The translations under genes were made by a program, and so were the position numbers. Below are positions 6,146-15,358 of a DNA stretch of 64,000 bases, piece by piece. Numbering within the stretch: position 1 is the stretch's first letter; the number at the start of each line of letters is the position of its first letter. The DNA is from Burkholderiales bacterium (lineage in GTDB: Bacteria; Pseudomonadota; Gammaproteobacteria; Burkholderiales; Burkholderiaceae_C). The DNA lies in NCBI GenBank assembly GCA_028868895.1, contig JAGWTP010000002.1, positions 1 to 64,000 on the forward strand, read 5' to 3'. The notes beneath the pieces are model-generated. The model made no database searches. It was not told the origin of the DNA and saw only the letters and a program-made list of their open reading frames with translations.

Positions 6146-7459
6146 ATGAACAACTCCGACAGTGCAAGGTCTACCCCCACCGCGGCAGGTGCGCCGGCGC
6201 CCGATGCCTGGCAAGCCACGCGCGCGCAGACCTCGTTGGCCACGCAGATGCTCAAGGACGAAGACGAATACCTCGCCCCCGAGAAGCACGACATCGGCCG
6301 ACAGACCGGCGTCAACGAGCGCGAGTTGTTCGTCTCCTGCGATCCGGCGCTGGCCATGCAGCAGCAGTTCGAACACCTGCACCCGGAGTTCATTGCGGTC
6401 CACGACATCGCAACCGCGTCGTCGCGCCGCTTGCTGGCCGGCATCGCCGCGGCCGGCGGGCGGGCGGTGCAAAAACTCGTGATCCGCCGCCAGGGTTACG
6501 GCACCGCGTTGGCAAGCCTCGAGTTCGTCGAGTTGCCGGCAGCAGATGGCGGCGTGTTGCGGATGTACTCGACCGAGGTCGACGCCGACACCGTCGCCCG
6601 CCATGGCCTGTCGCGCATGCTGCTGGCGTTCAGCCGGCTGGGCGTGATCATGGTCGGCGACCTGCCCGCTCACTCGATCGCCTCGGCGTTGAAGCCGTTC
6701 CAGGAGTTCATGCTCAGCGGCCCGTGGCCGAACCGCCAATTGCTGCTGCTGCCGCTCGCGTCGGGCAACGCCCTCGCGGCGCAGGGCGCTGAACTGGCTC
6801 GCGGCACCGGCGTGAACGTGCGCACCACCCCACAGGTCACGCGCCCGGCCGATGCCTGGGGCTTCATCAACGGCACCTGGGCTCGTTTGGGCGAACTCGG
6901 CCCGACGGATGTCCGCCGCGCGGCCATGCCCGCAGGCGCCGCAGGCAGCAGCGCAACTGCTCCATCGCGACCGATGGACGTCGTCGGCAAGCCGCCGGCC
7001 GTCGCGGGTGCGCGCGCCGCCACCGACCCGCTGACGATGCGGCCGATGCCGTCCGTGAGTTCGGCCGCCGCGCGCGCGGCGGCACCGAGGAGCCTGCTGG
7101 ATCGCTATGTGCAGCAACTCGCGGAACTGCCCGGCATGGTGAGCTGCTGTGTGTTCGACGTGGCCAGCGGGCTGGAAGTCACCCACGCCGGCGCCAGCCC
7201 CGGCGCGGCCGACCTGGCCATGCACGGCAAGGCGCTGCTGGCCGGCATGAGCGCCAGCAGCCGCAGCCTGGGGTTGGGGCACACCTTGCCCGAGGCCGCC
7301 ATCACGCTGGGCTCGCACCACCTGCTGCTGCGCGCCGTGCCGGGTCACCCGGGCCTGGCACTGCACGCCGCGCTCGACAAGGCCAGCGCCAACTTAACGC
7401 TGGCGCGGCTCCAAGTGCAACGCATGGACACGCTGTTCGGCCCGCCGGCACGCACGTAG
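6146..7459 (+). CDS. Uncharacterised protein with roadblock/LC7-like C-terminus
   Basis: The 437-residue soluble protein has no signal peptide or membrane segment. Three parts can be seen: a conserved-looking N-terminal region (about 20-240, including VSCDPALAMQQQFEHLHPEF and later FSRLGVIMVGDLPAHSIASALKPF); a low-complexity Ala/Pro/Arg linker (about 255-320); and a C-terminal domain (about 325-430, from SLLDRYVQQLAELPGMVSC). The C-terminal pattern of a helix, 'LPGM..CCVFD..SGLEVTHAG', a helix and 'LHAALDKASANLTLARLQ' resembles roadblock/LC7 domains, which in bacteria pair with small GTPases and polarity proteins. No such GTPase is adjacent. GGAAGG precedes the ATG. The name is tentative and the function unknown. 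Confidence 0.7.
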   Translation: MNNSDSARSTPTAAGAPAPDAWQATRAQTSLATQMLKDEDEYLAPEKHDIGRQTGVNERELFVSCDPALAMQQQFEHLHPEFIAVHDIATASSRRLLAGIAAAGGRAVQKLVIRRQGYGTALASLEFVELPAADGGVLRMYSTEVDADTVARHGLSRMLLAFSRLGVIMVGDLPAHSIASALKPFQEFMLSGPWPNRQLLLLPLASGNALAAQGAELARGTGVNVRTTPQVTRPADAWGFINGTWARLGELGPTDVRRAAMPAGAAGSSATAPSRPMDVVGKPPAVAGARAATDPLTMRPMPSVSSAAARAAAPRSLLDRYVQQLAELPGMVSCCVFDVASGLEVTHAGASPGAADLAMHGKALLAGMSASSRSLGLGHTLPEAAITLGSHHLLLRAVPGHPGLALHAALDKASANLTLARLQVQRMDTLFGPPART

Positions 7460-7493: not shown

Positions 7494-10088
<2,595 letters not shown>

Positions 10089-12590: not shown

Positions 12591-13997
12591 TCACGCATTG
12601 GCGGCGATGAAGGCCTTGACGGCCTGCGCATCGGCGGCCATCTCGGTGTAGCGCTTGGGCAGTTGCTCGATGTCGCGCATCGCCGCGGGCCGGTCGGGCT
12701 CGCGGCCGATGGCCTCGACGATGGTCTGCGCGAACTTGGCCGGCAGCGCGGTCTCGAGCACGATCATCGGCACGCCGGGCGCCAGGTGTTCGCGCGCCAC
12801 CTTCAACCCGTCGGCGGTGTGGGTATCGATGAGAGTGCCGAAACGTTGGAACGTGTCGCGGATCGTCGCGAGCCGATCGGCGTGCGTGCTGCTGCCGGAA
12901 ACGAATCCGTAGCCACCGATGCGCGCGAATTCGGCCGCTGTCAGCGTGAACGCACCGTGGCGATCCAGCTCGCCCCTGAACAGCTCGCGGGTGCGCGGCG
13001 CGTCGCGGCCCAGCAGGTCGAACACGAAGCGCTCGAAGTTCGACGCCTTCGAGATGTCCATCGACGGGCTGGAGGTTTCGTGGGTCTCGCTGCTGGCGCG
13101 CACGCGGTAGGTGCCGGTGCGGAAGAACTCGTCGAGCACGTTGTTCTCGTTGGTGGCGAGCACGAGCTGGCGTATCGGCAGGCCCATCATGCGCGCCACG
13201 TGGCCAGCGCAGATGTTGCCGAAGTTGCCCGAGGGCACCGCGAAGCTGACGACCTCGGTGTCGACTTTCGTCGCCTGGAAGTAGCCCGCGAAGTAGTACA
13301 CCACCTGCGCCAGCAGGCGCGCCCAGTTGATCGAGTTGACCGTGCCGATGCGGTAACGGCGCTTGAATTCGAGGTCGTTCGAGACCGCCTTGACGATGTC
13401 CTGGCAATCGTCGAACACGCCGTCGACCGCGATGTTGTGGATGTTGGCGTCCTGCAGGCTGAACATCTGCGCCTGCTGGAACGGGCTCATGCGACCCTTC
13501 GGCGAGAGCATGAACACGTTCACCCCGGCCTTGCCGCGCATCGCGTATTCGGCCGCGCTGCCGGTGTCGCCGGAGGTCGCGCCGAGGATGTTGAGGCTCT
13601 GGCCGCGGCGCGCGAGCTCGTACTCGAACAGGTTGCCGAGCAGCTGCATCGCCATGTCCTTGAACGCCAGCGTCGGGCCGTTCGACAAGGCTTCGAGGTA
13701 GACGCCGGGCTCGAGCGCGCGCAGCGGCACGATCCGCGGGTGGCCGAACGTCGCCGCGGTGTAGGTCTTCACCACCAGAGCGCGCAGGTCGGCGTGGGGG
13801 ATGTCGTCGATGTAGAGCGACAAGACCTCGAACGCCAGCTCGTGATACGCCAGGGGGCGCCACCTCGCCAGCGTGGCGGCGTCGATCGTCGGGTAGTGCG
13901 CGGGCAGGTACAGGCCGCCGTCGGGAGCGAGCCCTTCGAGCAGGATCTCGCAGAAGCTGCGCTCGGCTTGATCGCCCCGGGTGCTGATGTACTTCAA
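12591..13997 (-). CDS. thrC: Threonine synthase
   Basis: A PLP enzyme converting O-phosphohomoserine to threonine. The start is TTG at 13997, giving MKYISTRGDQAERSF, the standard family N-terminus. The TTG overlaps the hom stop (TTGA), and AAGGAAGAG lies just upstream, so translation is coupled to hom. The 468-residue protein carries the PLP lysine in GPTLAFKDMAMQ (K113), the GATSGDTGSAAEYA loop and FAVPSGNFGNICAGH. A much longer open frame runs upstream through hom, but it is a shadow. Confidence 0.96.
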   Translation of the reverse strand: MKYISTRGDQAERSFCEILLEGLAPDGGLYLPAHYPTIDAATLARWRPLAYHELAFEVLSLYIDDIPHADLRALVVKTYTAATFGHPRIVPLRALEPGVYLEALSNGPTLAFKDMAMQLLGNLFEYELARRGQSLNILGATSGDTGSAAEYAMRGKAGVNVFMLSPKGRMSPFQQAQMFSLQDANIHNIAVDGVFDDCQDIVKAVSNDLEFKRRYRIGTVNSINWARLLAQVVYYFAGYFQATKVDTEVVSFAVPSGNFGNICAGHVARMMGLPIRQLVLATNENNVLDEFFRTGTYRVRASSETHETSSPSMDISKASNFERFVFDLLGRDAPRTRELFRGELDRHGAFTLTAAEFARIGGYGFVSGSSTHADRLATIRDTFQRFGTLIDTHTADGLKVAREHLAPGVPMIVLETALPAKFAQTIVEAIGREPDRPAAMRDIEQLPKRYTEMAADAQAVKAFIAANA

Positions 13998-15358
13998 GAC
14001 AGCTCTTCCTTGCGGATCCGCACGATCGGTGCAAGCACGGTGGGCAGCGCCTGCATCTGCGCGATGGCCTTGTTCATGCGGCCTTCGACGGTGTCGTGGG
14101 TCAGGATGATCACGTCGGTCGGCGCCTGGCCTTCGGCTCGCGCCTCGTGGGAGGCGCCCGCGTCGCCCGGGCGCTGCAGCAGCGCGTCGATCGAGATGTC
14201 GCACTCGGCCAGGATGCCGGTGATGCGGGCGAGCACACCCGCCTGATCGGCCACCTGCAGCCGCAGGTAGAACGCTGTGACGACCTCGTCGATCGGCAGG
14301 ATGCGGGTGTCCTGCAGCGCGCCGGGCTGGAACGCCAGGTGCGGCACGCGGTGGTCGGGGTCGGCGGTGTGCAGCCGGGTGATGTCGACCAGATCGGCGA
14401 TCACCGCCGACGCGGTCGGCTCGGCGCCCGCTCCCTTGCCGTAGTGCAGCGTGCTGCCGACGGCGTCGCCGTGCACGACCACCGCGTTCATCGCCCCTTC
14501 GACGTTGGCGATCAGGCGCTGGGCCGGTACCAGGGTCGGGTGCACCCGCAGCTCGATGCCGTCGGCCGCGTCGGCAGGCGACCCGCCACCGGCACGGCGC
14601 TTGGTGATGCCCAGCAGCTTGATGCGGTAGCCGAGCTGCTCGGCGTAGCGGATGTCGGCGGCCTGCAGCTTCGTGATGCCCTCGATGTAGGCCTTGTCGA
14701 ACTGCACCGGGATGCCGAACGCGATCGCGCTCATGATGGTCGCCTTGTGCGCGGCGTCGATGCCTTCGATGTCGAAGGTCGGGTCGGATTCGGCGTAGCC
14801 CAGGCGCTGGGCTTCCTTCAGTGCGACATCGAAGTCGAGCCCTTTCGAGCGCATCTCCGAGAGGATGAAGTTGGTCGTGCCGTTGATGATGCCGGCGATC
14901 CACTCGATGCGGTTCGCGGTCAGGCCCTCACGCAGCGCCTTGATGATCGGAATGCCGCCGGCCACCGCGGCCTCGAACGCGACCATCACGCCGCGCGCTC
15001 GCGCCGCCGCGAAGATTTCGGTGCCGTGCACCGCCAGCAGCGCCTTGTTGGCGGTGACCACATGCTTGCCGGCGGCGATGGATTCCATCACCAGCGTCCG
15101 GGCGATGCCATAGCCGCCGATCAGTTCGATGACGATGTCGATCGCGGGGTTGGCAATCACCGCTCGCGCGTCGCTCACGACCTGCGCCGAATCGCCGACG
15201 ATGGCCTTCGCACGTGCGGTGTCGAGGTCGGCCACCATCGTGATGTGTATGCCGCGCCCGGCGCGGCGCTGGATTTCCTCCTGGTTGCGTTGCAGCACAT
15301 TGAACGTGCCGCTGCCCACGGTGCCTATGCCCAGCAGGCCTGCTTGAATCGGTTTCAT
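13994..15358 (-). CDS. hom: Homoserine dehydrogenase
   Basis: It reduces aspartate semialdehyde to homoserine, the branch point to threonine and methionine. The 454-residue protein has the NAD(P) motif GLLGIGTVGSG (8-18), the catalytic region (GIINGTTNFILSEM) and a C-terminal ACT domain (about 360-450) that usually mediates threonine feedback. The ATG at 15358 matches the family start; another ATG seven codons upstream overlaps the alaA stop. It lies between alaA and thrC, the usual Burkholderiales order, so alanine and threonine genes are probably co-transcribed. Confidence 0.96.
   Translation of the reverse strand: MKPIQAGLLGIGTVGSGTFNVLQRNQEEIQRRAGRGIHITMVADLDTARAKAIVGDSAQVVSDARAVIANPAIDIVIELIGGYGIARTLVMESIAAGKHVVTANKALLAVHGTEIFAAARARGVMVAFEAAVAGGIPIIKALREGLTANRIEWIAGIINGTTNFILSEMRSKGLDFDVALKEAQRLGYAESDPTFDIEGIDAAHKATIMSAIAFGIPVQFDKAYIEGITKLQAADIRYAEQLGYRIKLLGITKRRAGGGSPADAADGIELRVHPTLVPAQRLIANVEGAMNAVVVHGDAVGSTLHYGKGAGAEPTASAVIADLVDITRLHTADPDHRVPHLAFQPGALQDTRILPIDEVVTAFYLRLQVADQAGVLARITGILAECDISIDALLQRPGDAGASHEARAEGQAPTDVIILTHDTVEGRMNKAIAQMQALPTVLAPIVRIRKEELS

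Follow-up and report, generated by a model that had tools for sequence, protein, structure and literature searches.

The gene at positions 6146 to 7459 of the window, i.e. of the whole 64,000-nucleotide stretch of DNA that was analysed, encodes a 437-amino-acid protein that probably does not switch but serves as a fixed platform for docking. Its N-terminus is confidently predicted to take a Ras-like G-domain fold, in which the P-loop is missing, and its C-terminal half is a predicted roadblock domain. In this predicted form the protein has the architecture of the Rag GTPases, which act in nutrient sensing, but it is not a Rag GTPase. It represents one (type A) of two related types, A and B, that are treated below.

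The gene and its domain organization

The gene is real. Its open reading frame, as given by the ORF list and the translation, starts with ATG, comprises 437 codons plus the stop and spans exactly 6146 to 7459 on the forward strand; a GGAAGG located 7 nt upstream of the ATG is, on our reading of the sequence, its Shine-Dalgarno. In a comparison with five orthologs the differences are commonest at third codon positions in both domains (against the ortholog of locus L002: 28, 15 and 82 differences at codon positions 1, 2 and 3 in the N-domain, and 11, 4 and 44 in the C-domain). The following features are referred to in the text:

6146..7459, forward strand: whole gene, 437 aa plus stop, type A protein (open reading frame, translation, codon-position differences versus five orthologs)
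6209..6247, forward strand: residues 22-34, conserved N-terminal tail motif, W-Q-A-T-R-A-Q-T-x-x-A-T-Q like (conservation of T25 and T33; pLDDT)
6311..6901, forward strand: residues 56-252, predicted G domain of Ras-like fold that lacks the P-loop (AlphaFold2 pLDDT of about 90 or above for the most part; Arf1 8sdw, Z 10.9; P-loop 0/109)
6401..6424, forward strand: residues 86-93, loop equated with the P-loop (HDIATASS), placed by strand 82-88, helix 92-104 and residue tables
6902..7084, forward strand: residues 253-313, Ala/Pro-rich variable linker (pLDDT; 44-56% identity to five orthologs)
7085..7447, forward strand: residues 314-434, roadblock/LC7-like domain (VIA-align matches to roadblock chains; hhalign to stand-alone roadblock proteins)

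In the AlphaFold2 model, which was built from a 35-row alignment, 280 residues have a pLDDT of at least 90, and two domains (about residues 56-252 and 314-434) are separated by a disordered linker. The low-complexity linker of the initial annotation is thereby recovered: residues 253-313 are Ala/Pro-rich, predicted to be disordered (pLDDT under 50 at 258-282, 284-294 and 301-311) and much less conserved, with 44-56% protein identity to the five orthologs versus 69-93% in the two domains, the latter figure agreeing with the conservation that had been noted for the N-terminal region. The tail motif at residues 22-34 is predicted to be disordered or of low confidence (pLDDT under 50 at residues 8-36), and T25 and T33 are both retained in at least 90% of the 35 aligned rows. 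The N-terminus of type B proteins carries a well-kept MLTSLFGDLG-like motif (e.g. L102:8370-9653, forward, and L053:1501-2829, forward).

The gene adjoins, as had been proposed, what we take from its sequence to be clpB (ORF 7494-10088, reverse strand, convergent), and upstream, on the opposite strand, lie ORFs that presumably encode a solute symporter and its small partner. No GTPase-like name was seen by eye among the adjoining entries of the ORF list, in line with the absence of a GTPase neighbour in the initial annotation.

Family databases do not recognize the 437-aa protein: it matched no Pfam or NCBIfam family at E up to 10 and nothing in PHROGs or PADLOC, and a PDB sequence search with the full-length profile returned no match either. 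Among the 35 relatives, two single weak matches in NCBIfam (E 0.013 and 0.085) and four weak Pfam families beyond Robl_LC7 (best E 0.02) were taken as chance; none of the five Pfam families met by these relatives is a GTPase, and Gtr1_RagA was not matched.

A predicted Ras-like fold without a P-loop

Both folds are predictions, taken from the AlphaFold2 model. In the N-domain model helices and strands follow one another as in Ras folds, b2-b3 hairpin included; a strand-helix unit precedes this core, and an extra strand (109-115) follows its first helix. Foldseek ranks 1-16 are all entries with Rag/Gtr chains (best E 2.1e-8, both domains aligned); the whole-model TM versus these Rags is low (0.24-0.30, rmsd 12.6-15.2) because the domains are placed differently. 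With VIA-align, residues 78-251 of the N-domain match Arf1 (8sdw) with a Z of 10.9 over 150 residues (rmsd 3.7), and among the rows shown by the two programs the structure matches of the N-domain are Rag, Arf/Arl and Gs-complex entries. Modelled alone and without an alignment the N-domain came out poorly (pLDDT 55), so that the G-domain fold rests on one prediction. In the case of the C-domain, the first 29 VIA-align rows are roadblock chains (Z 12.3-16.0, residues 312-434), with Z 16.0 to 7yh1 and Z 14.8 to MglB 6izw. The roadblock/LC7-like domain that had been recognized initially thus holds, no other fold having been placed there. The N-terminal region, which had been called unnamed, is so in that no Pfam or NCBIfam model matches it, and a known enzyme is not indicated; it can now be assigned a predicted Ras-like G-domain fold without P-loop (AlphaFold2, VIA-align).

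The N-domain comparison comprised 115 rows with six repeats, i.e. 109 distinct N-domains (64 of type A and 45 of type B, the 45 including three divergent third-type copies). The P-loop (GxxxxGK[ST], G1) occurs in none of these 109, whereas all 15 small GTPases that were aligned from other members of the family have it. The position equated with the P-loop lysine, residue 92, is mostly Ser in type A (39/64) and Trp in type B (45/45). Matches to DxxGQ number 22 in the 109 distinct N-domains, with none at the G3 position; a DxxG starting at residue 144, near G3, is found in two rows, both of type B, and [NT]KxD matches a single time, at 212. The Ras-superfamily motifs G1, G3 and G4 are consequently not a property of the 109 N-domains. 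As the P-loop is absent from all of them, we read the N-domain as a pseudo-GTPase that is expected not to bind GTP, and we infer a lack of nucleotide binding.

The combination of the two folds in one chain has precedents. Rag GTPases consist of an Arf-type nucleotide domain and a C-terminal roadblock domain that mediates heterodimerisation (as described in the available part of PMC8254048), and fusions of Rag-like GTPases with roadblock domains are known from Asgard archaea, where one pair is encoded in an operon (available part of PMC10933270). The order of a G-domain fold and then a C-terminal roadblock domain is shared, here by prediction only, with Rag/Gtr (RagA/C, Gtr1/2) and the Asgard Rag-like proteins, and, as with Rag/Gtr, two paralogs occur in many genomes that hold the A/B family. 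Unlike Rag/Gtr, the A/B proteins lack a P-loop and have a long variable linker, A is present without B in some genomes, and the PDB profile search found no sequence similarity between the two groups. In the available parts of PMC4316618, PMC8254048 and PMC10933270 we noticed no fusion of a roadblock domain with a dead G domain, and among titles and abstract openings of the open-licence literature we recognized nothing on such a bacterial G-like-roadblock protein.

On balance, we favour a two-domain scaffold with Rag-GTPase architecture and a dead switch, that is, a dimeric docking platform that acts independently of nucleotide. Roadblock domains commonly dimerise and sit against small GTPases. 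The N-terminal half would fold like a small Ras/Arf GTPase without P-loop, with no GTP binding expected, and a flexible linker of about 60 residues would connect this G-like half to the roadblock half. The latter would most likely dimerise with itself, perhaps also with type B where that is present, and the roadblock dimer would then present two G-like domains, which together would give a client a place to dock irrespective of nucleotide. If the N-terminus is indeed a degenerate G-domain fold, the 'missing GTPase' would sit inside the protein itself.

Two paralogous clades within one family

In a tree of the 115 rows (the six repeats included), types A and B split on one branch with support 1.0 and none misplaced, the A/B labels having been assigned by profile scores on the same sequences. 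At the level of sequence, A and B are thus shown to be two paralogous clades. The window's genome (G000, a draft of 196 contigs with a stated completeness of 100%) carries a second, divergent copy (G000:C173) that is 25% identical to the first.

The whole-protein profile matches 92 of the 299 genomes of the GTDB family, many in the C-domain only. Among the matches listed, 57 genomes could be classified, with about 38 holding A and B, about 15 A only and 4 B only; the profile itself had classed 33 as A+B, 16 as A and 8 as B, and five genomes (G026, G004, G380, G394 and G564) were moved by hand to A+B. The 60 A/B genomes used in the counts below also include three with N-domain matches outside the A/B classes (G404, G471 and G548), and G389, with a match of E 7.6e-8, is counted among the other genomes, outside the 60 A/B genomes among the matches listed. 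Some form of match was obtained in 16 of 60 relatives, and the 20 related loci in named genomes divide into 10 from Rhizobacter, 2 from Piscinibacter and 8 named to a higher taxon only. Beyond the family, 12 of 300 genomes of the order match, 2 of them at full length, both in the window's family, and 10 in the C-domain only; when the N-domain profile was run on 303 genomes of the class, G000 alone matched, apart from a marginal hit in G777 (E 5.3e-4, 63 columns). Full-length proteins are confined to one GTDB family in the sampled genomes. In three genomes of a single genus (g192) a third, divergent copy lies beside type B (L165:7877-9022 and L168:7925-9094, both forward, and L166:11113-12171, reverse).

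A and B may together make up a Rag-like dimer of bacteria with two dead G domains, i.e. a nucleotide-independent counterpart of RagA-RagC that recruits a client as the Rags do and that descends from a GTPase-roadblock fusion by subsequent loss of the switch. We regard this as a possible, though rather doubtful, account; about 15 of the 57 genomes have A without B, and A-B pairing can therefore not be obligatory.

The roadblock module and the search for a GTPase partner

By sequence comparison, the roadblock half is shown to be homologous to the roadblock proteins of GTPase gene clusters: its hhalign match to stand-alone roadblock-like proteins has a probability of 99.6% (E 1.8e-24). Robl_LC7 (Pfam) gave no match for the 437-aa protein, matched 2 of the 35 relatives (best E 8.6e-4) and 3 of 16 C-domains searched alone (best E 0.0068), and had no match above the cut-off across the window's genome, which means that this profile would miss the family. 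The C-domain profile reached 7f8m with E 0.0018, in a list that also contains ribosomal S25 chains at about 0.07 and, with E 0.031, a designed MBP fusion, and the best match of the C-domain alone against the PDB by sequence was a terpene synthase (E 0.048).

In G402 and G565, other members of the family, C-domain-like stand-alone roadblock genes adjoin two further roadblock-like genes and the gene of an intact P-loop GTPase. Such clusters of a P-loop small GTPase and three roadblock-like proteins, of which one is homologous to the C-domain, lie at L114:8959-10681 and 13127-14849 and at L113:8543-10251, and G402 has two GTPase-roadblock clusters in tandem. These Burkholderiales clusters share that homologous protein with the A/B family but differ in that the GTPase is separate and has its P-loop. 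The same roadblock type also ends a chain with a BLUF blue-light sensor domain and a middle region (L107:8527-10107, forward) and one with a receiver domain and DUF4388 (L109:8816-10018, forward), which marks it as a recurrent signalling module; other N-terminal regions precede it at L106:9350-10357 (reverse) and L045:1039-1884 (forward). The N-terminal region of L106 was considered as kin of the N-domain, but its hhalign match covers 25 columns only (E 0.082) and kinship is not claimed. The prokaryotic survey of Ras-like GTPases reports, in the part available, receiver-roadblock fusions and MglB-coupled MglA (PMC4316618). Like the A/B proteins, such fusions (here L109, with DUF4388) end a signalling protein in a roadblock domain; the partner domain is a receiver and not a G-like fold.

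The protein could be an MglB-like regulator whose roadblock half acts in trans, as the GAP or co-GAP of a GTPase, and whose pseudo-G domain imitates that GTPase, thereby either autoinhibiting the protein or blocking one side of the dimer. The homology to roadblock proteins encoded beside a P-loop GTPase is in its favour, as is the predicted C-domain fold, which is close to MglB; the MglA/MglB systems of Myxococcus and Thermus use a related pair of modules, a Ras-like fold and a roadblock fold. Here, by contrast, the modules are fused in one chain, the G-like half has no P-loop, and an MglA-type GTPase was not found in the draft genome of the window. The genome search that the initial annotation had suggested for such a GTPase turned up none: the small-GTPase query from G402, which matches 39 of the 299 genomes of the family, has no match in G000, and an Arf profile gave only weak matches there, or matches in long frames of 378-1145 aa that we take for other GTPases and ATPases. 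Among the matches listed, the G402-type GTPase is clear, by a hand tally, in only 6 of the 60 A/B genomes (G365, G470, G546, G565, G569 and G593; G380 is marginal). Its absence from G000 and its rarity in A/B genomes make a plain MglA-MglB mechanism unlikely here, and we consider the regulator account as a whole unlikely, although a GTPase of more distant type might still be the partner.

Conserved gene order around A and B

Neighbourhood genes were called by a codon-usage script trained on ORFs of the window, which starts the 6146-7459 gene at 6248 and which overlooked nearly every gene of L192 as well as the B copy of G026, the ComFB gene of G525 and the A copy of G471. The synteny counts for A and B exclude the 20 loci L021-L040, so that no genome is counted twice. 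A frequent gene order is TPP enzyme, MFS, AraC, B, nadA, nadC, ComFB, nadB, A, clpB. For A genes, nadB is divergent upstream in 38 of 49 and clpB convergent downstream in 38 of 49; B genes stand directly before nadA on the same strand in 24 of 44, with gaps of 21-236 nt. B and A are adjacent in L099, and ComFB lies between them in L098 and L100. At the place of type B upstream of nadA, L187:11146-11760 and L188:10467-11186 (both reverse) encode short proteins of 204 and 239 aa that resemble the N-domain without roadblock.

This arrangement suggests that A and B might serve their locus, by controlling either NAD synthesis (nadA, nadC, nadB) or ComFB, a cyclic-di-nucleotide receptor. Besides the placement of B before nadA, of A divergent from nadB and of ComFB between the two, it is favoured by the presence of ComFB in 39 of the 60 A/B genomes among the matches listed versus 65 of 239 others (a hand tally of raw counts that include kin genomes), and cyanobacterial ComFB binds c-di-AMP and c-di-GMP (PMC12313861, in the part available). 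Strong as this role looks by gene order, it is weakened by loci that do without A/B: among 20 ComFB loci taken from genomes in which no full-length A/B match is listed, 14 have nadA, and 12 of these have no A/B-like gene. It is weakened further by the window's genome, which keeps both A and B while genome searches gave neither a ComFB nor a NadA match. A NadA match is missing there in spite of the stated completeness of 100%, and many relatives carry nadA beside type B. We therefore judge a role in the locus to be improbable. Since the nad/ComFB locus also exists without A/B, the linkage to clpB, the nad genes and ComFB looks like mainly inherited gene order, and as a clue to function the gene order of A and B is at best a hint.

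Constraint on the N-domain and its ancestry

Four residues are almost invariant in the 109 N-domains (D87 in 108, R114 in 108, W194 in 109 and W238 in 107), and in our reading of the AlphaFold2 model D87 is found where strand 1 ends and a P-loop would start. The near-invariance of D87, R114 and W194 implies that the N-domain is still under selection; judged from its sequence, it looks as if it has lost nucleotide binding yet stays constrained. These residues would also fit an unconventional binding site, formed by D87, R114 and the conserved tryptophans, through which the N-domain would still take up a nucleotide or some other ligand; the protein would then be a switch or ligand sensor and not a plain scaffold. 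The complete lack of the G1 motif and the fact that DxxGQ never falls at the G3 position speak against such binding, which seems quite unlikely to us.

The sequence kinship of the N-domain with GTPases is weak. Against a small-GTPase set the N-domain obtained an hhalign score of 23.6 at a probability of 5.5%, in register from b2 to a5; this set is its best profile match among the families tried, seven unrelated families scoring at most 15.7, and 2 of 200 column-shuffled GTPase alignments attain the same 23.6. PDB profile searches with the full-length protein and with the N-domain found no GTPase, the best N-domain match being a dehydrogenase (E 0.7). That the N-domain is another alpha/beta sandwich merely resembling a G domain, as this faint sequence signal and the PDB searches without a GTPase might suggest, is nevertheless very improbable in view of the Rag, Arf/Arl and Gs-complex entries among the structure matches shown, the Ras strand order with its b2-b3 hairpin and the in-register GTPase profile match above all seven unrelated families.

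Conclusion

The comparison describes 109 distinct proteins, one of which, the 437-aa member, has no Pfam or NCBIfam match at E up to 10. A chain of a G-domain and a roadblock domain is already known from the eukaryotic and Asgard Rag GTPases. If the favoured reading of a nucleotide-independent docking platform is true, a bacterial family has the same architecture without the P-loop, which would imply that such a chain can function purely as a scaffold; the role of a dimeric platform would then be separable from that of a GTP switch.
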